From the NCBI GenBank assembly GCA_040752595.1, contig JBFMGX010000001.1:1-36968 (forward strand): a stretch of DNA of 36,968 nt. The letters run 5' to 3'. Of the stretch, positions 9,932 through 23,481 are shown in pieces (the stretch's first letter is position 1; every line of letters begins with the position of its first letter). The translations under genes were made by a program, and so were the position numbers. Below the pieces are notes generated by a model. That model ran no database searches. It was given only the letters and a program-made list of their open reading frames with translations, and was not told the DNA's origin. The stretch is from Candidatus Zixiibacteriota bacterium. GTDB lineage: Bacteria; Zixibacteria; MSB-5A5; WJJR01.

Positions 9932-10699
9932 ATGGCCGTCCGCTCAGTCATCCTGATCCAGTTGCGCAACCCCGTCGGCAAGAACGAGCCGGTGCCGGTG
10001 CTGCGCGTCTTTGATGACGTGCAGATGCTGCGGCTGAAGCGCGCGTTCTTTGAGGATACGCTCTGCCAGGTGGCCGCGATCAATCAAGTCGACATCAAGA
10101 TCGCCTTCGCCCCGTCGTCCCGGCTGGTGTGGGGGCGCGATGCGATTGCCAATCTGGTCGAGCGCTTTCCCCGGCGCCGCGCCTTCCAGTCTTTGCCCGA
10201 GCGCACCGAACTGATCGCCCAAGCGGTGGCGCCGATCGCCGAGCGGACGACCGAGAATCTGCGGCGGTGTCTGGAGAACGGCTATGCGCAGATCATTCTG
10301 TTGGCGGGATACATCCCGACGATTCGCTCGGAGTTGATCCAGTCGGCGCTGAACCATCTCAAACGCCATCCGCTGATTCTCGGCCCGACCATCGAGGGCG
10401 GCTGTTATCTGGTTGGTCTCCGGTCCGACTCTCCCGAAGCGGCCGCGTTGGTATCGATTGGGACTGACACCTCATACAAGGACTCCACGTCGGCGCTAAC
10501 CGCCGCCGGCATGACGTGGCAGGAGATCGACCTGTCATATGATGTCAGCCATCAGGAAGACCTCGAGTTCATCGTGCGGGAGATCAATCACTGCCGATTC
10601 ACGGGTGACGAGGAGACGGCGCGCTGCACGGAGGCGGTCCTTGCCGAGTTCATGCGCGACAAGCCCGGTGCCGGCGACGGCAAGGGGACAGGGTCGTAG
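9932..10699 (+). CDS. DUF2064-like glycosyltransferase-fold protein
   Basis: Cytoplasmic protein of 255 residues related to the DUF2064/TIGR04282 family, which shares the fold of MobA- and CofC-type nucleotidyltransferases. The family's best conserved block is present as ILGPTIEGGCYLVGL, matching GPxxDGGYYLxGL, followed by the C-terminal IDLSYDVSHQEDLEF that matches YDVDTPEDL. The middle segment ENGYAQIILLAGYIPTI fits the strand that carries the D-P/T substrate loop. In contrast to most members, the N-terminal KTRL loop is missing: only RNPVGKNEPVPVLRVFDD precedes the helix LKRAFFEDTL. Its substrate is unknown. The start is ATG 9932 with GGGGA nine bases upstream and its own promoter. A palindromic repeat follows the stop. 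Confidence 0.7.
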   Translation: MAVRSVILIQLRNPVGKNEPVPVLRVFDDVQMLRLKRAFFEDTLCQVAAINQVDIKIAFAPSSRLVWGRDAIANLVERFPRRRAFQSLPERTELIAQAVAPIAERTTENLRRCLENGYAQIILLAGYIPTIRSELIQSALNHLKRHPLILGPTIEGGCYLVGLRSDSPEAAALVSIGTDTSYKDSTSALTAAGMTWQEIDLSYDVSHQEDLEFIVREINHCRFTGDEETARCTEAVLAEFMRDKPGAGDGKGTGS

Positions 10700-10711
10700 C
10701 ATAGTTCGTAG

Positions 10712-10762
10712 GTCAGGTGCCCTGTGCACCTGACAAGAGCCGCAGGAGCGCAGGGCTCCTGC
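10712..10762. repeat. Two tandem hairpins between genes
   Basis: Hairpin 10712-10734 has arms GTCAGGTGC/GCACCTGAC around CCTGT; hairpin 10742-10762 has arms GCAGGAGC/GCTCCTGC around five bases. The pair is bounded by GTAG (10708) and CTAC (10764), like the elements before ftsK. It fills the 116-base gap before the creatininase-family gene. No poly-T run follows, so it is not a standard terminator. Confidence 0.75.
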
Positions 10763-10815
10763 GCTACCACACGAGTATTCCTCTTCAGCCACAGCGTGGA
10801 GAAGGGAACTTGACC

Positions 10816-11550
10816 ATGCCTGTCTATTGGGAGGATCTCAACTGGGCGGAGTTTCAAAAGCGGGTTCCGGAGGAATTCGCGGTTGCCATCATCCCGGTCG
10901 GTACCATCGAGGCCCATGGCGTCGCGCCGCTGGGAACCGACAACTTCATTCCCATCGACTTGGTGACGCAGATGGCCGTCGATCTCGGTGCGCTCATCTG
11001 TCCACCCATCCACTATGGACAGGTGCGCGGCCTCGCCGGCTACCCCGGCGGGATCTCCGTCGACGAGGAGATCTTCGCCGCCTATTGCACGAGCGTCTTT
11101 CGCGGCATCGCGGGGTGGGGCTTCGACAGTCTGATCGTCATCAATGGCCATGGCGGCAACACGCAATCGTTGAAGAAGGCCGCGTGGGCGGTCCACAGCG
11201 AGACCGGGCTGAAGATGCTCGTCGTCGATTGGTGGGTGCTGGCCAATCCAGTGTGCGAAGAGGTCTACGGTCAATCAGGAGGACACGCTGGCACGGACGA
11301 GAACGGTTACGTCTTGGCCATCCGGCCCGAAACGATTCATCGCGACTGGTATTCCGAAAAGATGATCTTCCCCTTCGATCCGGCCATCACGACCTATCCC
11401 TATCCCGGCCCGATCATCATCTACAAGTCCGACGAGGGCGCCCCCGATTTCGATCCCGACAAGGCCCAGCGCTATCGCGCCGGCGCCATCGCCAAGGTCC
11501 GTGACTACTGCCGCGCCGTGTTATCTCAGTGGGAGACGATGGGATTGTAG
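10816..11550 (+). CDS. Creatininase-family metal-dependent amidohydrolase
   Basis: Cytoplasmic, likely metal-dependent amide hydrolase of 244 residues. The family includes creatininase, ArfB-type amidases and MftE peptidase; the substrate here cannot be named. The start is ATG 10816 with GGAGAAGGGAA just upstream. Metal-site motifs are visible: GTIEAHGVAPLGTDN (E32, H34, D42), INGHGGN (H112), and the GHAGTDEN block near residue 160 where most members have HAGExET. The Glu normally seen in that last motif is shifted by two positions, which may mean a different metal geometry. The gene stands alone between repeats, and its stop codon TAG is part of a GTAGGGG palindrome. Confidence 0.85.
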   Translation: MPVYWEDLNWAEFQKRVPEEFAVAIIPVGTIEAHGVAPLGTDNFIPIDLVTQMAVDLGALICPPIHYGQVRGLAGYPGGISVDEEIFAAYCTSVFRGIAGWGFDSLIVINGHGGNTQSLKKAAWAVHSETGLKMLVVDWWVLANPVCEEVYGQSGGHAGTDENGYVLAIRPETIHRDWYSEKMIFPFDPAITTYPYPGPIIIYKSDEGAPDFDPDKAQRYRAGAIAKVRDYCRAVLSQWETMGL

Positions 11551-11648: not shown

Positions 11649-12947
11649 TCAGATCCGATACCCGAACGTCACAAACGCCCGCCGGGTCTTGTACTTGGCG
11701 AAATACGTGCCGGGGTCGTCGTTGCGCAGCTCATACCCGCCCTGCACATAGGCCAGATCGAGTGTCATCACCCGGTCGATGAGAAGCCCCACGCCGGCGG
11801 TCACGTACTGCCGCTGTGATTCGATGAATCGCGCATCGACCGGGAGCGGGTCGCGGAAGTACCCGGCCCGGAGGGTCACACCTCGATCGGGAATGAGGTA
11901 TTCGGCGCCGATGTTTACGCCCAAGACTTCGGTGAGGTTGTCTTGGATAAAGCGCTTGGCAGCGGCCTCGTCATTCTTGAGAGCCGGATCATCGTAACTG
12001 AAATCCAATTGCGTCCAATCCGTGTATCGCAAATCACCGAGGATGTTCAATTGCCGGACTGAAGCCGCCAATCCAAGACCGAACGCCAGGGGACGTAGAA
12101 TCTGGTAGTTGGAGGTCGTCTCATCGTACCATTGCCATTCCGAATCCAGAGTATCGACGACCAGCCTGGCGTTCTCCTCGACAGCGAGGTAGGTGGGCGT
12201 CTCAAGCGTCAGCGCCGCAGATACCACCGGCGAAATCGCGTATGTGAGTCCGGCGGTGGCCGACACGCCGACGTAATCCAGGTTGATCGTCTGGTCTTCC
12301 GTGATCGTATTGGCCGTGCGGTTGTCCTCGCGGTTCCACTGGTAGTCGTCCTTGCCGGTGAGGAGGTGCAAAGACATGCCGGTGGACAGCCGCGGCGATA
12401 TATCGACCGCACCACCCGCCGTCCACTTCCAAATGCCGCCGGTCTCCAACTCACGGCCGCGATCGGTGGCGACGCCGCTGGTGCCCAGTTCGTCGTACAG
12501 TACGCCAAAGGCGCGATCAAATGAATTGATCCGATGCAGACCAAAGCCGAAGACGAGCGATCCGCGATAAGTCGGTACCGGTACCGTGAGCGACAAGGCG
12601 TTGATGCGCGTCTTGTTGAGATTGCGATCGTCGGTGAATGCCTGCCCACCCCACAACAGGCGCGTGTCGTTCGCCAGCCGCTGATGTGACAACCCCGCGC
12701 GGAACTCAATGCGTTTGATTTTGGCCAGATTGGCCGGGTTGTAGATCATGGCGGACCCGTCATGGGAAAACGCCAATCCCGTGTTGCCCATCGCCATGGC
12801 CCGCGCATCGCTGCCGAAGAAGTCAGACCAGAGCGTCTCCTGGCCCAATGCCTCGGTATCAAACACTTGGGCCGACGCCGTGCTGACGCAGACGAACATG
12901 AGGGCTGCGCCGAGCCCGATGCGGCGTACCCGGTCGACCAATCGCAT
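11649..12947 (-). CDS. FadL/OMPP1-like outer-membrane protein
   Basis: Predicted outer-membrane beta-barrel of the FadL/TodX (OMPP1) type, a family that moves hydrophobic compounds. The 432-residue product starts at ATG 12947; a longer frame to a TTG at 12989 lacks a ribosome site. A signal peptide (about residues 1-26, ending STASA) is followed by the family's early block: SDARAMAMGNTGLAF, then SAMIYNPANLAKIKRIEF, which matches the G...A.A.NPAgLa pattern. The rest shows alternating strands ending in the aromatic-terminated strand RRAFVTFGYRI. Its substrate is not evident. It is the last gene of a minus-strand group and lies 39 bases after the haem lipoprotein gene, so these two are likely co-transcribed. 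Confidence 0.82.
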   Translation of the reverse strand: MRLVDRVRRIGLGAALMFVCVSTASAQVFDTEALGQETLWSDFFGSDARAMAMGNTGLAFSHDGSAMIYNPANLAKIKRIEFRAGLSHQRLANDTRLLWGGQAFTDDRNLNKTRINALSLTVPVPTYRGSLVFGFGLHRINSFDRAFGVLYDELGTSGVATDRGRELETGGIWKWTAGGAVDISPRLSTGMSLHLLTGKDDYQWNREDNRTANTITEDQTINLDYVGVSATAGLTYAISPVVSAALTLETPTYLAVEENARLVVDTLDSEWQWYDETTSNYQILRPLAFGLGLAASVRQLNILGDLRYTDWTQLDFSYDDPALKNDEAAAKRFIQDNLTEVLGVNIGAEYLIPDRGVTLRAGYFRDPLPVDARFIESQRQYVTAGVGLLIDRVMTLDLAYVQGGYELRNDDPGTYFAKYKTRRAFVTFGYRI

Positions 12948-12985
12948 TGTCCGTATCACCGTACCCTCAACTTTCGCACGGCCGC

Positions 12986-13630
12986 TCAATTCGGCGGGAC
13001 ACCACCGCGTCGATCGGCCTTCTTGTCTGTTGTCTTTTGCTCCGTGGTGCCGGTGCTGTCGGGCGGCGTTTGCCCGGTTATCTTCACGCGGGTCTTGGTC
13101 GGTGTCGTTCCCGGTCCCGCCCCTCCGGGTTCGGTCCCAGTCCCACCTTTGCCGGTACCAACACCACTGCCAATGGCACGATACCCTCCGCCCGTGCCGC
13201 CCGGTGCCGAGACCGCTGGGGCACGGTCAACATACGGTGGGACGATCCCGCCCCGGCGCTCGGCTTTGGTGGAGCTGGTTCCCTCGTCGCCACCGGCCTC
13301 GGCCGCATCGGGTTCGTACCATTGGTGGTCCCACCACCACGGGTAGGCGTAGTAGTACCCCCAGCGCGGGTTCTCGAAGTAGTACTCCGGGTAGAACCCA
13401 TAGAAATATCCGTAGGGGTATGTGGCATAATCCGCGTGGCAGTCGAGGCAGTTCTGCCGGTAGTACTCCTGCGAGTGGACATCCGCGTCGGTTCGCTCGG
13501 GCCCCTCGTTCTCGGTGATCGGATGCTTCAGCATGGTGTAGCACCCGACCAGTCCGAACACCAGGGCGACTACAATCGGGGCGGCCCAGAGCGCGGGAGC
13601 ACGCGGACCGGTTCTCATTGGTTCAGCCAT
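12986..13630 (-). CDS. One-haem lipoprotein with aromatic-rich segment
   Basis: Unrecognised 214-residue lipoprotein. ATG 13630 is chosen because GAGG is six bases upstream; ATG 13633 is next to it. A signal sequence ends in LVGC (lipidated Cys30). A single CXXCH motif, CLDCH at residues 61-65, predicts one covalently bound c-type haem. Residues 68-107 are remarkable: 21 of 40 are Tyr, Trp or Phe (for example YGYFYGFYPEYY and AYPWWWDHQWYEP). The C-terminal half is low in complexity, rich in Gly, Thr and Pro, with Lys near the end. No second haem motif or obvious axial Met domain was seen. It lies between two outer-membrane barrel genes, so a surface or periplasmic electron-transfer role is possible but unproven. 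Confidence 0.75.
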   Translation of the reverse strand: MAEPMRTGPRAPALWAAPIVVALVFGLVGCYTMLKHPITENEGPERTDADVHSQEYYRQNCLDCHADYATYPYGYFYGFYPEYYFENPRWGYYYAYPWWWDHQWYEPDAAEAGGDEGTSSTKAERRGGIVPPYVDRAPAVSAPGGTGGGYRAIGSGVGTGKGGTGTEPGGAGPGTTPTKTRVKITGQTPPDSTGTTEQKTTDKKADRRGGVPPN

Positions 13631-13982: not shown

Positions 13983-14801
13983 CTAGAACGACTCGACGTA
14001 GATCAGCCGGAGCTCACGCCCGATGGTGTTGCTCCCGCGCCGGTTGGTCAGAATGTCCTTGAGATTGAACTCCATAAGGACTCGTTCCAGTACCGTCCAC
14101 CGCGCCCCGGCATTGAGATACCCCTCGCCTTTGCCCAGACTGTGATGCTTGCGATCGTCGTTCAAACCCAGATCATACTCGACGACGAATCCGATGTTGT
14201 TGTCGAAACGCAGATCACTGCCGAAGAAGAAATCGACGTCGTCGTCCTTGTCCGCACGCTCGCGTGAGTAGTTGACGCCGCCGTGGAGCGACGAGGTGAA
14301 ACTGGTGCCGCGGTAGGCCTTCGACACGACCGCATAGAAGCCCTTCGACTTGATGTCGAATCGGTCCAGCGAGTCGATCCACGGCCCGAAACCGATGTCC
14401 TCGTAACCGACCGCCAGACCGGGGAGCGCCATCGTCTCGCCGATCAACTGCAACCGCGTGAGGAACTGCATGTGGGGGTTCCATTGCGGATCATGCGCGG
14501 CGATGATGTTGGTTCCCCCATAGGCGATGCCCACCATCCAGTTCTTGGTGAGACCGATCTGCAGAATCCCGAGCATGCCGCCGTCGGGGAAGGCGCGCAA
14601 TTCGGTGTCGAATGAACCACGGCCGAGCATCCCCGCTGTGGGATTGTCGATCATACGGCGCGGCGCTCGTTCATTACCGATGTTCTCGTCGTTGGACAGG
14701 CCTCGGTATCGAGACGACCGTTGCGCGTCCGCCGATGTGGCAGTGACCAACACAAGCAACGAGGCCACAAGCCCCGCCCAGGACCACCGTAGATTCTTCA
14801 T
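13983..14801 (-). CDS. Outer-membrane beta-barrel protein, unknown function
   Basis: Predicted 272-residue outer-membrane barrel that I cannot assign to a named family. ATG 14801 is preceded by GAGAGGGG at a good distance, and by a promoter with consensus TTGACA. A signal peptide (about residues 1-26, ending TSADA) is followed by a short charged region and then repeated amphipathic strands: SFDTELRAFPDGGMLGILQIGL, shown here only in part as GGMLGILQIGL, then MVGIAYGGTNII and SSLHGGVNYSRER. It ends in RELRLIYVESF, with a C-terminal Phe as in many barrels. The RGSFDTELR/FPDGG and NPHMQFLTRLQLI segments suggest a YjbH-like or related exopolysaccharide-linked barrel, but this is a weak resemblance. 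It is first in the minus-strand group. Confidence 0.72.
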   Translation of the reverse strand: MKNLRWSWAGLVASLLVLVTATSADAQRSSRYRGLSNDENIGNERAPRRMIDNPTAGMLGRGSFDTELRAFPDGGMLGILQIGLTKNWMVGIAYGGTNIIAAHDPQWNPHMQFLTRLQLIGETMALPGLAVGYEDIGFGPWIDSLDRFDIKSKGFYAVVSKAYRGTSFTSSLHGGVNYSRERADKDDDVDFFFGSDLRFDNNIGFVVEYDLGLNDDRKHHSLGKGEGYLNAGARWTVLERVLMEFNLKDILTNRRGSNTIGRELRLIYVESF

Positions 14802-14839
14802 TTGTCCCCTCTCGGATAAAGTACACCCTGCCACTGTGG

Positions 14840-15162: not shown

Positions 15163-15220
15163 TTTGTGGAACGTCTCTCGGAGCCAGCGGGTAATAGGGG
15201 AGAATGAAGTCCCCAACCCG

Positions 15221-15238: not shown

Positions 15239-15835
15239 TTGGATACCTCAAAAGCCATCGACCATGGGCTGATGCGTCGAGTCCAGCAGGATGACTACGA
15301 CGCGTTCGAGCAACTCGTGGATCGGTACAAGTCACGACTGGTCAACATCATCTACCGGATGCTCGGCGATCAAAACGAGGCCGAGGATCTGGTCCAAGAG
15401 ACCTTCCTTCGTGTCTGGACACATCGCCAGGATTATGACTTTTCGTACTGTCTGTCGACTTGGATCTATACAATCGCGCTGAACTTGGGCAAGAACGAGT
15501 TGCGGAAACGCCGTAAGTTCAAGTTTTACAGTCTCTTCGATCTTTCGGAGAAAGGTGTCGACATCCCCGACACCAAGATGGGGCCCTCAGCCCTCGGTCA
15601 CCTCCTCCAAGGAGCGATCGGTCGCTTGCCGATCCGGTACAAGGAGGCCTTCCTGTTGCGCGACGTTGAGCAATTGCCGTACGAGGAAGTCGCTCAGATT
15701 TTGGGAGTCCCACTGGGGACGGTCAAGTCACGGGTCAATCGCGCCCGTGCGGTGTTGAAAGATGAACTGAAACCGAAGTTGGAGCAATCCGGTGCGTTGT
15801 CGCAAGGCACGTTGGTACCTGTCCGCACGTTGTGA
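15239..15835 (+). CDS. ECF RNA polymerase sigma factor (RpoE-like)
   Basis: Extracytoplasmic-function sigma factor of 198 residues that would direct RNA polymerase to an envelope-related regulon. TTG 15239 is chosen for its ribosome site. Region 2 (about residues 20-85) holds YDAFEQLVDRYKSRLVNI and the core-binding signature NEAEDLVQETFLRVW, then FSYCLSTWIYTIALN. Region 4 (about 120-175) holds LPIRYKEAFLLRDVEQLPY and the helix-turn-helix EEVAQILGVPLGTVKSRVNR. There is no long C-terminal extension. The anti-sigma gene overlaps its end by 44 bases and an HtrA-like gene follows, the same order as in algU-mucA-mucD-type loci. The regulon cannot be read from the window; whether it controls its own promoter is unclear. 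Confidence 0.93.
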   Translation: MDTSKAIDHGLMRRVQQDDYDAFEQLVDRYKSRLVNIIYRMLGDQNEAEDLVQETFLRVWTHRQDYDFSYCLSTWIYTIALNLGKNELRKRRKFKFYSLFDLSEKGVDIPDTKMGPSALGHLLQGAIGRLPIRYKEAFLLRDVEQLPYEEVAQILGVPLGTVKSRVNRARAVLKDELKPKLEQSGALSQGTLVPVRTL

Positions 15836-16406
15836 CGGGACGCTGTCCGAACGCCAGCGGGTGCGTTTGGACGCCCATCTTTCGGCATGTCCTGAATGCC
15901 GACGGGAGGGCTTCTACTTCTCGGAGATCGGTGCTTTGGCCGAGCGTCTGGAGAAGGTCTCGGTGCGTCCCGACTTCAATCTGCGGTTGCGGGCGGCGAT
16001 CCGACGTGTCGAGACCGGTGAGTCCCGTCCCGCTTGGCGCCGGCGCTTCATCCCCGTCATTCCCCGTCCCGTTCTAGCCCTGGCAGCCGCCACGCTCGTG
16101 GTCGGCGTCGGTCTGGGTGCCTATCGGTTTCTTTCTCCGGCGCCGGGTCCGCTCGCGCAGGGAAAGGTGGACGCGGCCGGAGAGTTGTCAACGTCCTCCG
16201 CACTGCCCGCGACGCTGACCCCTGTGGAAGGTCTGACGCCGGAGATGCGTCGCCTTCAGGAGCAGTATCTGGCGGCTGGTCGGCTGCCGGAGAACTATAT
16301 CGTTGAGGCGGTCGGCCTCAATGACCCAACCTCCAAGAAACTCCCGACCCGCTATGTTCTGCCTACAGTGTCTACCGAGCAGGTCTCGCGCAAAGACAGT
16401 TTCTAA
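15792..16406 (+). CDS. Zinc-finger anti-sigma factor
   Basis: Membrane anti-sigma factor of 204 residues, predicted to hold the upstream sigma factor inactive. It starts at GTG 15792, seven bases after GGAG, inside the end of the sigma gene (44-base overlap), so translation of both is coupled. The N-terminal zinc-binding anti-sigma domain shows C3 and the H29-x3-C33-x2-C36 motif in HLSACPEC. A membrane segment lies at about residues 94-113 (VLALAAATLVVGVGLGAYRFL), leaving about 90 residues outside the cytoplasm. That outer part includes the conserved-looking TPEMRRLQEQYLAAGRLPENY. Release by regulated proteolysis is usual for such factors, but the HtrA-like protein next door lacks a catalytic residue. 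A terminator follows. Confidence 0.9.
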   Translation: MRCRKARWYLSARCDGTLSERQRVRLDAHLSACPECRREGFYFSEIGALAERLEKVSVRPDFNLRLRAAIRRVETGESRPAWRRRFIPVIPRPVLALAAATLVVGVGLGAYRFLSPAPGPLAQGKVDAAGELSTSSALPATLTPVEGLTPEMRRLQEQYLAAGRLPENYIVEAVGLNDPTSKKLPTRYVLPTVSTEQVSRKDSF

Positions 16407-16599: not shown

Positions 16600-17964
16600 A
16601 TGGACCATGGCGATCGGTGTAGGCACATCCCAAAGCTGACAACACGATACCTATGTCTGGCGCTTGCCGCGTCGTTGGGCGGCATCGCAGTCCATGGCAT
16701 GTCGCAGGCCCGGGTGCCGGGAGGTCCGCCCGGTTCCTTGCTGCAGGCGCTCGAGCATGAACTACGAACCGTGGTCGATGCTGTTTCTCCTTCCGTGGTC
16801 ACGATTCGCTCCGCCTGCCGCATGGACTCGGGCCGCACCCCGAAGGCGGGGTCATCGTCGCTTTCCGTGGGTTCCGGTGTCATTATGGATACGCTCGGCC
16901 GAATCCTCACCACGTCACGCGTCATCGAGGATGCCGATGATTTTTGGGTCGAATCGGCCGATGGACGGCTCTTTCAAGCGACGCTGCTCGGCACTCATGG
17001 CGACGTCGCCGTTCTGCAGATTACCGCCACCAACCTCGTGCCGGCCCGGTTCGGAGACGGCGCGAACCTTGGCGTGGGATCGTTCGTCGCGGCCATCGGG
17101 AATTCCTACGGATACTCCGGCGGGTTGTCGTGGGGGGAGGTCAATGGGTTCCGGCCCGATGGGACAATCCAGATGTCGCTGGGTGTTTCCGCCGGGAGTT
17201 CCGGCGGCGCGTTGGTGAACAGCCGCGGCGAAGTCATCGGTCTTGTCAAGGCCAAGATCTCCGAGCCGTTCTATGTCGATCCACTCCTTCTGCCCGCCGG
17301 TGAGGGACGTGGGTCTGTCACCGTTCCCGGCCGGCGACTGGAATTGCCGACCTCCTCCGTCTCGCTGGCCATTCCGATCACGGTGGCACTGCGGGCGGCC
17401 GGGCGTGTCACCGATGTCGGTTTTGAAGCGCCCGCCTACATCGGCGTGTATGTTGAAGATCTGACCGGCTGGTATGCCGCCCACTTCAAGACCGAGAACG
17501 GTGTCTTGGTCACCGGGGTCGTGGAACACACACCGGCGGCACGCTTCGGGATCAAACAGGGGGATGTGATTGTCACAGTTGATCGCCAGGTTGTCCCGTC
17601 CGTCCGACGCTTCCGTCAGATCATCTCTCAGTCCCGTCCCGGGCAACGGCTGATGATCGACCTGCTCCGAGGTGGCAAACCGCTTAAGGTCGCGCTGGAA
17701 GCGGGCCGGGCGGATCTGCCCGAGCTGCAGGTCAGCACCGCGCCCTCGTCTTCTGCGTTAGGTCCATCCGGTGGTTCTCCCTTCTGGCTCCCTTCCGCGA
17801 TTGTCCAAGATCGGCTGGCACGACCCGACAGGCCCGGTCTGGGTGCGGCACCGAAGGGGGATCAAGAACCGACAGACTGGGCGCAGCGCCTGCGCCGCCT
17901 GGAACAGATCGTGGACTCGCTGCAACAGGAATTGTCGGCTCTCAGACATACAGGCCAACACTGA
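16600..17964 (+). CDS. HtrA/DegP-like PDZ protein, catalytic His replaced
   Basis: Trypsin-fold envelope protein with one PDZ domain, 454 residues, likely a pseudoprotease. The start is ATG 16600, nine bases after GGAG. A signal or anchor segment lies at about residues 14-33. The protease domain (about 52-270) matches DegP: GSGVIMDTLGRILTT, then SRVIEDAD where DegP has NHVVDNAT. Position 107 is thus Arg (CGC, 16918-16920) in place of the catalytic His; Asp135 (GTHGDVAVL) and Ser201 (SAGSSGGALVN) remain. A PDZ domain (about 280-368, with VTGVVEHTPAARFGIKQGDVI) and a C-terminal coiled coil (about 425-450, RLRRLEQIVDSLQQELSAL) follow. Its place after a sigma/anti-sigma pair recalls MucD/DegS, but with the dyad broken it more likely binds or senses misfolded proteins. 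Confidence 0.88.
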   Translation: MDHGDRCRHIPKLTTRYLCLALAASLGGIAVHGMSQARVPGGPPGSLLQALEHELRTVVDAVSPSVVTIRSACRMDSGRTPKAGSSSLSVGSGVIMDTLGRILTTSRVIEDADDFWVESADGRLFQATLLGTHGDVAVLQITATNLVPARFGDGANLGVGSFVAAIGNSYGYSGGLSWGEVNGFRPDGTIQMSLGVSAGSSGGALVNSRGEVIGLVKAKISEPFYVDPLLLPAGEGRGSVTVPGRRLELPTSSVSLAIPITVALRAAGRVTDVGFEAPAYIGVYVEDLTGWYAAHFKTENGVLVTGVVEHTPAARFGIKQGDVIVTVDRQVVPSVRRFRQIISQSRPGQRLMIDLLRGGKPLKVALEAGRADLPELQVSTAPSSSALGPSGGSPFWLPSAIVQDRLARPDRPGLGAAPKGDQEPTDWAQRLRRLEQIVDSLQQELSALRHTGQH

Positions 17965-18097: not shown

Positions 18098-21000
18098 ATG
18101 CGGAAACGCTTCAAAATCCCCCTTTGGACCTTGAGCTTTGTGCTGGTCGTCGGGGTCGGCACATACATCTGGCTGACCCAGTCCCCGTGGTTGAAGAATC
18201 GTCTGGTGGACAGGATCAACCGGACACTCCAACCGATCACGGACGTTCGCGTCGGCATCGGTTCTCTATCCGGAAACGTCCTCTCTTGCGTCGGCGCCAG
18301 CGGCATCGTCATCACAGCCCCGGGGCGCGGGGGCACTCTTGACACTCTGGTCACCGTCGGGCAGCTGGTGCTCGCCTATGACGTACGGACTCTCCTGTCC
18401 GAGGGACACGTCATCGATAGCATCCGGCTTTCGCAGGTTCGGCTCTTCCTGCCACGAGATTCGCTGGCGGCGCGGTGGCGGTCGCTACACCGGACTTCCG
18501 CATCAGAAGGAGGAATCAGAGGCGCTTTCGATCTGTCCTTGCGCTCCATTATCATCGAAGATGCCGCGCTCTGGCGGGTCGGGGACACGGTGCCGATCGT
18601 GGACGCGGTACGCATGGACGCGTTGCTCGCCGCCCAAAAGGGAGATGTCCACCTGCGACTCTGGGACATGTCAGCCCACTCCCATGCACTTGGGTCGGTC
18701 TCCGCGGCTGGACGCTGCGATATCACCAGCGCCGGGTGGGTCTGCGATTCACTCGTCCTGCGAGCCGGGCAGTCGGACCTCTTGTTGTCGGGGACCGCGG
18801 ACCGGTGGCGTGTGCAGGGGCGGCCGCTGGTGTTGGATGATGTCGAGGCCATCGTCCATCTCGGTATACGGGGACGTCTGAATGTAGACGGGAAGATCCG
18901 AGCCGACTGGGAAGGGAAGCGGTGGACCGGTGACGTCATCACGACGGGCACGCTCGAGGGGTTTGTGCTGCAGGACGTTGCTGTCAGGTTTACTGCCGAG
19001 CCGGGTCACCTGGCTTTTGACTCGATTTCCGGGAATATCGCCGATGCCCGCTGGCACGGTACGGCACACGTGGATTGGGAGGCCCATCCCATACGGTGGA
19101 GCTACACGGGGAACGTGCGGGATCTCAACCTGGAACGCCTTGCCGAGGGGACGTATACCAGCGATTTCTCGGGGTTCGTTCGGCTGGAAGGTCTGGGTTC
19201 CACCGGCGATGATCTGCGCGTGCGCGGCGACGTCGACATGAGTGCCGGCGTATTTGATGACGTGCACTTCCAGCGTGCTCGGGGCGCCATCGGGGTGACA
19301 TCGGACTCACTGATTCTGGGTGGCGATTTCACAGTGGAACTGAACGGGACGACCTTCGTCGGCGGCGGGACGGTCGCCTTCGCCGATTCGTTGGACCTCT
19401 TCGCCGATGTCACCTGCGGCGACCTGAGCCGGTGGGACCCGATGATCTTCATCGACTCCTTGGCCGGACGGGGGAGCGGCCGGATCATCCTCAGCGGGCT
19501 GACTCGCGATCCCGACTTGGAAGGGACCGTGGCGTCCGACACGTTGCGCATGTACGATCTCTACACGAACGAGTTCTCCGCCCGGTTCTCTGTTCCGCGG
19601 TTCCTGTACGAGCGTGCCGGCACTGTGGAAGCCCATTGGGGACGATCATCCACATGGGACGTGGCGACGGATTCGATCGAATTGAAGGCCCGTTTGATGG
19701 CGCATGACGTCGTCATCGATTGGGCGCATTGGTCGTCGCCGAACGTCGACGTGGAAGGGGCCGGGTGGCTCAACTGGTCGGCCGACACGGTCCCGGTCCA
19801 ACTGTATCCCTTGACCATACAGTGGGACAACCAGCACTACTCCGCCGGCGACAGCGTCAGCATCGTCGTCGACTCCGTCGGATTTCGTCTGGCTCCCCTG
19901 TCATTTGAAGGGCCACTTGGTGTAGTCCACGCGGAAGGTCGTTTCGACTACGACACACGGATGGACCTGGGCTGGGAAGTGGAGCAATTCCGCCTGGAGT
20001 CTCTCTGGCGGCGGTTCTTTCCCACGGTTGAGTTGGCAGGCTTGCTGGAGGCGCGGGGACGCCTTCAGGGGACCTTTGCCGCCCCGCGGTTCTCTTTGAC
20101 CGGCGCACTGTCCGATCTCAGCTATCAGGACCGCGACTTTGGTGATTTGGAGGGAGCGTTGTTCTACGAGGACAAACGTCTGGTGGCCGATTGGCTTCGC
20201 CTGAAGAATCCCGACTTTCAGGTGGACGCCAGCGGGACCTTCCCGATCGACCTGAGCTTCGAGACTGTCGATCAGCGCGTTCTGGCCGAACCGCTGTCGG
20301 GTCGGCTGAGTGCCTCGGGTGATAATCTCGATCGCATCGTGAGTTTCTGGCCGCAGACATTGGAGTCGATCCATGGCTCGTACTCTTTGTCCGCGACCGT
20401 CGGCGGCACGCCGCAATCGCCGCTCTTCAGCGGCAGCGGCACCATGCGCTCGGCGAGAGTCAAGGCGCTCGAAATCGTCAATCCCATCGAAGACGTCCAG
20501 GTTGACCTCACGTTGCGGCAGGATACGATCCGTGTCGACAAGGCGACCGGAATCGTGCGCGACGGACGCAAGCGGGGTCGCATCCGTGCCGTCGGATCGC
20601 TGTTGGTCGAATCGTATGATCGCTTCGACTACGATCTCACAGTGACGGGACGCGATGTTCCGGCGCGCTTCGAATTCGAGGACTACGCCGTCACCACTGA
20701 TTTCGATCTGACGGTGAAAGGGTCAACGCCGCCGATTGTGAAGGGGACGATTCATCCCCTGCGTGTCGACGATCACGAGCCGCTCGCGGCGGAACCCGAG
20801 GCGCCGGTGATCGACACGACACTGTGGGACTGGGACATGTTGATCGACATGCCCGGAAACTACTGGCTGCGTAACGATCAGATCGAAGCTGAGCTGTCGG
20901 CCGACCTCCGTCTGGTGCGCTCGCGCGGGCAGGTGAACTACATCGGCACCGCGGAGTTCGTTCGCGGCAAGATCTACCTTCTGGACAAGGTCGGGCAGAT

Positions 21001-21577
21001 CAAGCGGGGCGTCATCACTTTTGACGATCCGGTTCAGCCGAACCCGCAATTGGATATCGACGTCGTCTTTCGCATTCAGCAGCCTCGGGTGCAGGCGACG
21101 GCGACGGGCTCGTCGAGCCAGGTCGTCGATCTGAACCTGCATATCGGGGGCCGGGCCTCCGAACCGCTGATTCAACCCGAGGCGCCCTACACCGAACAGG
21201 ACGTACTGCTGCTGCTGGCCACCAACACGACATCGGGATCCGGTGGGAGCGACACAACGACGACCGGCGATCCCTTGGCCAACCGGTTGAAGTTCGCCGC
21301 CACGGGGTTGCTACTCTCCGAGGTCCAGCGAGCGGCGGCGCGCAGACTCGGACTTGAGACGTTGGAGATCAACTCCCTCGGCGGGCTGAATGCGCAGATC
21401 ACCGTCGGTCGGTATGTCTCACCGCATTTGTATCTGTACGGTAGCAGCCCGATTGACGTGGCCGGAGGGCAGGAGGTCGGGTTCGAATATCGCCTCGGTC
21501 GACATGTGTTCCTGGAAGGCAACCGCGACAAAGACAGTCGCTACCGGCTCAACCTGCACTTCAATTGGGACTATTGA
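18098..21577 (+). CDS. tamB: Translocation and assembly module protein TamB
   Basis: AsmA-like bridge protein of 1159 residues that spans the periplasm and works with TamA in outer-membrane protein insertion or lipid transport. The start is ATG 18098; no clear ribosome site is seen. One N-terminal membrane anchor (about residues 9-27, LWTLSFVLVVGVGTYIWL) is followed by about 750 residues of repeated beta-strands that would form the long hydrophobic groove. The C-terminal DUF490 domain (about 800-1159) shows the family's features: GTAEFVRGKIYLLDKVGQI, ITFDDPVQPNPQLDIDV, the PLIQPEAPYTEQDVLLLL motif and a final strand set ending LHFNWDY. It overlaps the next gene by four bases (TTGA), so TamB and TamA are produced together. 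Confidence 0.92.
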   Translation: MRKRFKIPLWTLSFVLVVGVGTYIWLTQSPWLKNRLVDRINRTLQPITDVRVGIGSLSGNVLSCVGASGIVITAPGRGGTLDTLVTVGQLVLAYDVRTLLSEGHVIDSIRLSQVRLFLPRDSLAARWRSLHRTSASEGGIRGAFDLSLRSIIIEDAALWRVGDTVPIVDAVRMDALLAAQKGDVHLRLWDMSAHSHALGSVSAAGRCDITSAGWVCDSLVLRAGQSDLLLSGTADRWRVQGRPLVLDDVEAIVHLGIRGRLNVDGKIRADWEGKRWTGDVITTGTLEGFVLQDVAVRFTAEPGHLAFDSISGNIADARWHGTAHVDWEAHPIRWSYTGNVRDLNLERLAEGTYTSDFSGFVRLEGLGSTGDDLRVRGDVDMSAGVFDDVHFQRARGAIGVTSDSLILGGDFTVELNGTTFVGGGTVAFADSLDLFADVTCGDLSRWDPMIFIDSLAGRGSGRIILSGLTRDPDLEGTVASDTLRMYDLYTNEFSARFSVPRFLYERAGTVEAHWGRSSTWDVATDSIELKARLMAHDVVIDWAHWSSPNVDVEGAGWLNWSADTVPVQLYPLTIQWDNQHYSAGDSVSIVVDSVGFRLAPLSFEGPLGVVHAEGRFDYDTRMDLGWEVEQFRLESLWRRFFPTVELAGLLEARGRLQGTFAAPRFSLTGALSDLSYQDRDFGDLEGALFYEDKRLVADWLRLKNPDFQVDASGTFPIDLSFETVDQRVLAEPLSGRLSASGDNLDRIVSFWPQTLESIHGSYSLSATVGGTPQSPLFSGSGTMRSARVKALEIVNPIEDVQVDLTLRQDTIRVDKATGIVRDGRKRGRIRAVGSLLVESYDRFDYDLTVTGRDVPARFEFEDYAVTTDFDLTVKGSTPPIVKGTIHPLRVDDHEPLAAEPEAPVIDTTLWDWDMLIDMPGNYWLRNDQIEAELSADLRLVRSRGQVNYIGTAEFVRGKIYLLDKVGQIKRGVITFDDPVQPNPQLDIDVVFRIQQPRVQATATGSSSQVVDLNLHIGGRASEPLIQPEAPYTEQDVLLLLATNTTSGSGGSDTTTTGDPLANRLKFAATGLLLSEVQRAAARRLGLETLEINSLGGLNAQITVGRYVSPHLYLYGSSPIDVAGGQEVGFEYRLGRHVFLEGNRDKDSRYRLNLHFNWDY

Positions 21578-23481
21578 CGCCCGCTCCCGCTCGACGCGCT
21601 TTGATTTGTGCCGCCGCGTTGATCGCTCTCGGCGGTTCGGTGCTGCCCGTACTGGCACAAGCACAGGATGAGGCACTACGGACCTGGCGACGCAAACGTC
21701 CCGAGGTGGCCCGCGTCGATGTGGTCGGCAACCGGGCGCTGTCTGCCGGGCGGATTCGCGCCGTGATGGAGATTCATGCGCCGGGATTCTGGGCTCAACT
21801 GGGTTTGGCCCATCGTTCACACCTGCTGGTCGGCGCCGAGTATCGTGATCGCGAGGCGATTCGTCTCGCATACCGACGGCAGGGTTTCTGGGAAGCGGCG
21901 GCGCAGATCAGTGCCGCTCCTGATGAGAGCGGGGCTGCCATTGTCACCGTCACGATCAACGAAGGCCCGTGCTATTACTGGGGGGGCGTCCGTTTGGACG
22001 GTGACTCTCCGACACTCGTGGCACGGGGACAGCGGGAGCTGCGAGTTCTGGCTCGTGGCGCTCCCGCCGACTCGTTGACCATGGCTTTGGTTGCGGATCG
22101 TGTGCGTGCCCTCTGCGCTGACCGGGGGCACCCGCGGGCCGTGATGAGCGTGGCTCTCCATCCTCGCGCCGACTCCATCGATGCCGAGCTTCATCTCACC
22201 GCTGCAGATTCCGTCGTCTTGGGGGAACTGACCATCCGCGGAGCCGAGAAAACCAACGAGCGGCTGGTGGGCCGTGAGATCGCATGGGAACCGGGCGCCG
22301 CCTTCTCCCAGCGACGCCTGGCGTGGCGCCAACAGGATGTCTATGCCAGTGGTCTGTTCAGCTTCGTTCACCTGGAACCGACCGGGTTTGACTCAGCCGG
22401 TCCGGGGCAGCCGAAGCGCGCCAACTACCAACTTCGCGTCGTTGAGCGCGACCCCTCATATGTGGAATTCCGCACCGGCGCCGGGCAGGATCCGGAACGC
22501 GACCTGACGTGGGACTACGCGGTCGAGTGGGGCTCCCGGAATTGGATGGGGTCGGGGCGTCAGTGGTCATTGTCGGCCCAGTCCGGATTCGTCATCGTCA
22601 CCGACTGGCGGGTGCTCCATCATCGCTTCGCCGCGCGCTATACGGAGCCATGGGTCTTTGGTGTGCGTCTGCCGACGACACTCACCCTGGCCTACCAGCC
22701 GGGTGTGCGCGCCGCGACCCAAGACTTCAAAGTGGAGACCTATTCCGGCGAGTTGAATGTGACGCGGCGTGTTGGCCGGACGGCTCGGTGGTGGTCTTCG
22801 CTCATCTATGAACGTGTGACGATCTACGGTATACCGGCGGATCAGTACCAAACGTTCCTGGAACAGCAGGGAATCAGTGTTCGACGTCGTTGGACCGTGG
22901 CGGCGGAACGGGACACGCGGCCCAACGTGTTCATTCCGACCTCGGGCGCGCGCACACGCGTGGACGGGGAATATGTCGGTGGTGTCCTGGGTGGAGCTGA
23001 TGATTTTTACAAGTTGGACATTTCCTGGGCCCGTTACCAGATCGTCAGCGCCCCGACGGTGCTGGCGTCGCGTTTTCGCCTCGCTTGGGCGAATACGCAC
23101 TCCGGGGGCACGCTCATTCCCACGCTGGACCGGTTCTATCTGGGCGGGGCCAACTCGATTCGGGGGTACGCCGAGAACACGATCGGTCCGGTCGACGATT
23201 CCACCGGCGCGCCGATCGGCGGACGCGTCGTGACGATGGCCAACCTCGAGTTGCGTACGCCGGCGGTGTCCAAGCTCTGGTTCACTCTTTTCCTCGACGC
23301 CGGGAACAACTTCGCGGACTTCCGGCGCGTCGCGCTCAAGGATATGCTGGTTTCCTTGGGCATCGGTTGGCAGTACATCGCGCCGGTGGGGCCGATCCGT
23401 CTGGACTACGCCCGACGGGTCGTGCACCCGCGGTATCCCAAGTCGGACCGATTGCATTTGTCGATTCTGTTCTCATTCTGA
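21574..23481 (+). CDS. tamA: Omp85-family outer-membrane protein TamA/BamA
   Basis: Outer-membrane barrel of the Omp85 family, 635 residues, partner of the upstream TamB. TTG 21574 overlaps the tamB stop (TTGA); TTG 21565 is the other candidate and neither has a good ribosome site. A signal peptide ends near VLAQA (about residue 30). Three POTRA-like domains cover about residues 40-310 (VARVDVVGNRALSAGRIRAV, VLGELTIRGAEKTNERLV). The 16-stranded barrel follows. Loop L6 has the family signature in FYLGGANSIRGY, and the last strand ends LHLSILFSF with a C-terminal Phe. Size and tamB linkage favour TamA over BamA, which would usually have five POTRA domains; I cannot exclude that it also serves as the BamA here. 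Confidence 0.88.
   Translation: MTPAPARRALICAAALIALGGSVLPVLAQAQDEALRTWRRKRPEVARVDVVGNRALSAGRIRAVMEIHAPGFWAQLGLAHRSHLLVGAEYRDREAIRLAYRRQGFWEAAAQISAAPDESGAAIVTVTINEGPCYYWGGVRLDGDSPTLVARGQRELRVLARGAPADSLTMALVADRVRALCADRGHPRAVMSVALHPRADSIDAELHLTAADSVVLGELTIRGAEKTNERLVGREIAWEPGAAFSQRRLAWRQQDVYASGLFSFVHLEPTGFDSAGPGQPKRANYQLRVVERDPSYVEFRTGAGQDPERDLTWDYAVEWGSRNWMGSGRQWSLSAQSGFVIVTDWRVLHHRFAARYTEPWVFGVRLPTTLTLAYQPGVRAATQDFKVETYSGELNVTRRVGRTARWWSSLIYERVTIYGIPADQYQTFLEQQGISVRRRWTVAAERDTRPNVFIPTSGARTRVDGEYVGGVLGGADDFYKLDISWARYQIVSAPTVLASRFRLAWANTHSGGTLIPTLDRFYLGGANSIRGYAENTIGPVDDSTGAPIGGRVVTMANLELRTPAVSKLWFTLFLDAGNNFADFRRVALKDMLVSLGIGWQYIAPVGPIRLDYARRVVHPRYPKSDRLHLSILFSF

Follow-up and report, generated by a model that had tools for sequence, protein, structure and literature searches.

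An HtrA-like pseudoprotease fixed in a sigma/anti-sigma operon of Zixibacteria, a probable sensor that would dock on the anti-sigma factor instead of cutting it

Introduction

What can an HtrA-like protein do in an envelope-stress operon when it carries arginine at the position of the catalytic histidine? The question is raised by a gene at positions 16600..17964 of the window, which is the 36,968-nucleotide stretch analysed here (Candidatus Zixiibacteriota bacterium, assembly GCA_040752595.1 of 2.94 Mb, contig JBFMGX010000001.1, positions 1 to 36,968); all positions below refer to the window and to its forward strand unless a minus sign or a locus name is given. In DegS-type control, misfolded outer membrane proteins (OMPs) are sensed by switching a protease on. 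That HtrA proteases act in sigma-E pathways is known already, and so are HtrA pseudoproteases with non-catalytic roles, namely MamO of magnetotactic bacteria (PMC4794232) and the inactive plant Deg proteins (PMC3473262).

Results

The gene has an ATG start. Its product of 454 residues combines a degenerate trypsin-like domain and a single PDZ domain with a C-terminal coiled coil, and also has a hydrophobic, signal-like segment. Pfam placed Trypsin_2 at residues 91-215 (3.6e-19) and the single PDZ domain at residues 280-366 (17437..17697; PDZ_2, 5.3e-13), and the succession of a trypsin-like domain and a PDZ domain that marks HtrA/Do proteins was found by Pfam, in the structural model and by Foldseek. 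The AlphaFold2 model contains a complete trypsin fold and the PDZ domain, with pLDDT mostly >90 across both, and a C-terminal helix at residues 425-452 (17872..17955), as most orthologues have; the intact fold claimed in a preliminary description of this DNA agrees with the model. Its top Foldseek matches were DegQ, DegP, AlgW and DegS, and the neighbours included DegS and AlgW structures that hold a C-terminal peptide, for which the TM-score to target reached 0.80. The NCBIfam scores fell below the cut-offs for both Do (157.5 against 416.2) and DegS (134.3 against 422.95), the MamO score was weak (19.9 of 800), and Pfam found no TauE domain in the protein.

Alignment with canonical HtrAs confirmed the earlier reading that Arg107 (codon CGC, 16918..16920) occupies the catalytic His position and that Asp135 (GAC, 17002..17004) and Ser201 (TCC, 17200..17202) are kept. 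The protein therefore has R-D-S where HtrA/Do proteases have His-Asp-Ser, and in the same alignment H/D/S is intact in both canonical Do paralogues that the genome encodes. Arg stands at this position in 5/6 family members, two of which have Glu in place of Asp and Thr in place of Ser: the residues are R/D/S in G001 of the same genus, R/Q/S in G004, R/E/T in G005 and G006, and S/D/T in G003, and the sister family has L/D/S. The preliminary description had left open whether the substitution was a recent change or a fixed loss, and had named His in close relatives as the sign of an error or strain mutation; G001, G004, G005 and G006 all have Arg, so a recent change, like a sequencing or strain error, is ruled out, and with 72 of the 75 readable orthologues lacking an intact triad the fixed loss is supported. 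A substitute His at the active site was likewise ruled out, since the nearest His in the sequence, H133, is private to this protein and is not a conserved stand-in, Asp being found there in 68/76 orthologues. At a guess, an Arg-Asp/Glu salt bridge may replace the His-Asp pair. A query of genome contigs with the single protein matched two close relatives (G005 and G006) and two distant ones. For a further genome of the same genus (G002), the searches found neither the sigma factor nor the HtrA, which reflects either loss or an assembly gap.

The orthologue set was assembled by a profile search of the class together with retrieval of the loci, and the class appears to be the whole phylum within the genome collection used. 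The protein occurs in at least 16 families of the Zixibacteria-like phylum: the set numbers 76 orthologues from 16 families, and f17 was found later as a further one. One orthologue is masked at His and Asp and could not be read; an intact H/D/S triad was found in only three of the 76, all of family f6. Outside f6 the three positions drift: the His column shows S (40), R (7), T (5) and ten further residues, the Asp position holds mostly G or N, with Glu or Gln in members of the family studied here, and the Ser position holds I, L, V, T, A and others. The triad columns rank 119, 168 and 172 of 299 by conservation, and the conserved columns are the fold glycines and the PDZ loop. This carboxylate loop, AYIGV in the window, follows the pattern [GA][YF][LIV]G[IVL] across the orthologues, with Gly282 present in 76/76; it has the form of a loop that takes C-terminal peptides, and its binding of aromatic ligands is putative. 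Ten close orthologue pairs gave dN/dS of 0.06-0.29, and the protein is therefore under purifying selection. Judged by its sequence, the HtrA-like protein is a fixed and old pseudoprotease.

On the tree, the orthologues form one clade against the two Do paralogues of the same genome (support 100), and the intact family f6 is placed inside the inactive families (SH-aLRT 84-90); a single loss of the triad was not rejected by the AU test (p 0.13). The orthologue of locus L047 (f11; 10305-11510) has His at the catalytic position and Gly at Asp and sits inside a clade with Pro and Gln, its His being either kept or regained. Two f10 orthologues (L041 9278-11329 and L042 9407-11674) are much longer, with 684 and 756 aa, and carry Asp at the His position.

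The gene lies behind an ECF sigma factor of the RpoE/SigW type (15239..15835, TTG start) and a zf-HC2 anti-sigma factor (15792..16406), and is followed by a TamB-like protein (18098..21577, ending FNWDY) and an Omp85 protein with POTRA domains and barrel (21565..23481), both conserved neighbours. In nearly all loci with enough contig, HtrA stands directly behind the sigma and anti-sigma genes, in that order, and most continue with TamB. An ECF-type promoter, GGAAC-N18-GTAA (15168..15197), precedes the sigma gene and is kept across the phylum: GGAAC-N16-20-GTA occurs upstream of sigma in 30/34 loci as compared with 4/199 control stretches, a count in which families f1 and f2 are not independent because the motif was read off these two before being scored on all; it held in the other families. 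HtrA thus belongs with sigma and anti-sigma to one gene set behind a sigma-type promoter, and we infer an autoregulated envelope-stress operon. Classic ECF motifs (GAAC...GTC, GAACTT...TC and similar) gave no match, and a stricter pattern, GGAACTN15-16GTATNAT, was too rare genome-wide for defining a regulon. Elsewhere in the same genome, on contig C16, a matching GGAAC-N16-20-GTA site precedes the start of an active Do gene by ~105 bp. RseP-type M50 proteases are present as well.

Two further features of these loci were observed. The HtrA gene of sister family f2 has a GGAAC-N-GTA site of its own immediately upstream, the second one at the locus (L062 7962 (-) and L063 10269 (-)). A gene of ~240 aa, by eye of the carboxymuconolactone decarboxylase/AhpD type (L223 2702-3424, L225 2634-3401, L218 1651-2346), separates HtrA from TamB in f8 and immediately follows the anti-sigma gene in the HtrA-less families f19 and f5.

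The anti-sigma factor has a cytoplasmic zinc-finger domain, one hydrophobic segment predicted to cross the membrane, and a periplasmic tail, giving an N-in/C-out topology as judged by eye. Its C-terminus in the window, VSRKDSF, is the proposed PDZ ligand. In 65/69 genomes, the anti-sigma factor encoded before HtrA ends with Tyr (46) or Phe (19), and positions -2 to -8 are variable, unlike the terminal aromatic. By comparison, other zf-HC2 proteins of the phylum end with F/Y in 3/30 (Fisher 8e-17 against the HtrA-linked anti-sigmas), and long ORFs of the same loci in 15%. Since the tail ends in Phe or Tyr, it imitates the C-termini of OMPs, and in the window itself the ends are alike for the anti-sigma factor (KDSF), Omp85 (ILFSF) and one predicted OMP (YVESF).

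The aromatic end is associated with the presence of HtrA. When further loci were counted, it was found in 76/80 anti-sigmas with HtrA at the locus versus 5/13 without (Fisher 5e-6), and by genus in 54/58 versus 3/9 (p 1.5e-4); these tests count genomes or genera as independent and overstate the significance, because HtrA was lost only about three independent times (f19, f5 and G046). This HtrA-less set was defined by the presence of the sigma/anti-sigma pair, and in f19 and f5 the HtrA is cleanly absent between the anti-sigma gene and the next conserved gene. The four HtrA-bearing genomes in which the aromatic end is missing belong to f18 (three) and f8 (one), and the five HtrA-less genomes noted above keep it.

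Discussion

Based on these findings, we propose that the secreted HtrA pseudoprotease of this autoregulated sigma operon works by binding, with its PDZ domain docked on the anti-sigma tail, and that it most likely serves as a guard or sensor, a reading that we hold to be somewhat better than an even chance. The inactive HtrA would probably dock on its anti-sigma partner instead of cutting it, and cleavage of the anti-sigma factor by a protein that has lost the catalytic His appears improbable. First, the PDZ domain could hold the periplasmic C-terminus of the anti-sigma factor, and the anti-sigma factor bound in this way would be shielded. Upon envelope stress, unfolded OMPs would pile up and their C-termini would compete for the PDZ domain, and the freed anti-sigma factor would lie open to cleavage, first by an active site-1 protease and next by an RseP-like site-2 protease, which would release the sigma factor. 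Such a guard, titrated by OMP tails, would follow the logic of DegS, RseA and RseB with one sensor that does not cut. From sequence we infer the pairing of PDZ and tail, protection over recruitment, competition by OMPs and the identity of the cutting protease. The wider form of the proposal, a titration switch that replaces the allosteric DegS throughout the phylum, in which unfolded OMPs and the OMP-like anti-sigma tail compete for one non-cutting PDZ domain, is more tentative, and we would put it somewhat short of even. The preliminary description, which had suggested a binder or sensor and not a protease, fits well with what the sequences indicate; it had missed the loss of the whole triad across the phylum, the ECF sigma/anti-sigma operon, and the probable partner, the anti-sigma factor encoded upstream.

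The fold of RseB is a lipid-binding one. The protein studied here, with its HtrA/PDZ fold, differs from RseB/MucB in this respect, although its proposed role would be analogous: a non-catalytic periplasmic protein, produced from a sigma/anti-sigma operon, with the anti-sigma factor as its binding partner. HtrA genes next to a sigma/anti-sigma pair also occur as MucD and the mycobacterial HtrA, and the gene position behind the pair is the same; however, these proteins are to our knowledge catalytically intact, whereas the triad here is lost phylum-wide. DegS of E. coli and AlgW of Pseudomonas are the closest folds by TM-score to target and resemble our protein in having a trypsin domain with one PDZ domain, in being secreted and in belonging to an ECF sigma/anti-sigma envelope-stress pathway. 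They differ in that the protein of this phylum lacks the catalytic His, has a decayed triad, is encoded in the sigma operon, carries a C-terminal coiled coil and scores far under the DegS cut-off, and in that we propose the anti-sigma tail itself as ligand. AlgW uses its PDZ domain to bind the C-termini of mislocalised OMPs or the tail of MucE (...WVF), and MucB/RseB forms a complex with MucA/RseA that suppresses cleavage (PMC8545111).

The frequent linkage of HtrA to TamB and Omp85, together with the coiled coil and a PDZ domain suited to OMP C-termini, would also be consistent with a non-catalytic periplasmic OMP chaperone, expressed under sigma control, that works with TamB/Omp85 and has no part in regulating the anti-sigma factor. 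However, the linkage to sigma and anti-sigma is tighter, as HtrA adjoins this pair in several families that have no TamB nearby, and a chaperone would account for the operon but neither for the aromatic anti-sigma tail nor for its decay where HtrA is missing; we therefore regard this explanation as unlikely.

The tail itself could be bound for another purpose, and the main alternative with the same PDZ-tail contact is a recruiter for an active Do protein. Here the pseudoprotease would be an allosteric partner of an active HtrA, in a mixed oligomer or as an adaptor in the manner of MamO and MamE, and would deliver or license the anti-sigma factor for cutting instead of guarding it. The genome has two active Do proteins, one of them behind the matching sigma-type promoter, MamO activates MamE without a triad of its own (PMC4794232), and the ancestor may have cut the anti-sigma factor itself, because family f6 keeps the triad. 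However, mixed oligomers are hypothetical, and the genes of both Do proteins lie elsewhere in the genome, their products being of other length and sequence. We consider recruitment quite unlikely. MamO itself binds metal, carries a TauE domain and is without a sigma/anti-sigma partner. In place of the pseudoprotease, the PDZ domain of an active Do or of RseP could recognise the aromatic end of the anti-sigma factor. It is highly improbable that the protein remains proteolytic through an unusual active site or that Arg107 is an error: although the protein retains Asp135, Ser201 and a Gly-rich oxyanion loop, Arg is fixed in five of the six family genomes, in two of them alongside Glu and Thr at the remaining triad positions, and the nearest His, H133, is unique to this protein.

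What is new here is the aromatic end of the anti-sigma factor, which goes with the presence of HtrA, together with the invariant glycine of the HtrA PDZ loop. Open-access papers covering sigma factors of Zixibacteria, pseudoproteases of the HtrA family and ECF classification in connection with PDZ domains yielded no description of the module, nor any report of a sigma/anti-sigma operon with a fixed inactive HtrA or of an OMP-like PDZ ligand at the C-terminus of an anti-sigma factor, which is not proof of absence. With catalysis lost phylum-wide and both the place in the sigma operon and the peptide pocket kept, the system suggests that sensing can operate without the cutting half. It would offer a natural separation of sensing from cutting and a case of pseudoenzyme evolution with the intact cousin f6 for comparison, and the anti-sigma C-terminus provides a concrete candidate ligand for peptide-binding work.

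Upstream of the sigma gene, the window also encodes two predicted OMPs (13983-14834 (-) and 11649-12989 (-)), which are conserved neighbours in several families; one of them is FadL/PorV/BamG-like with a weak score.
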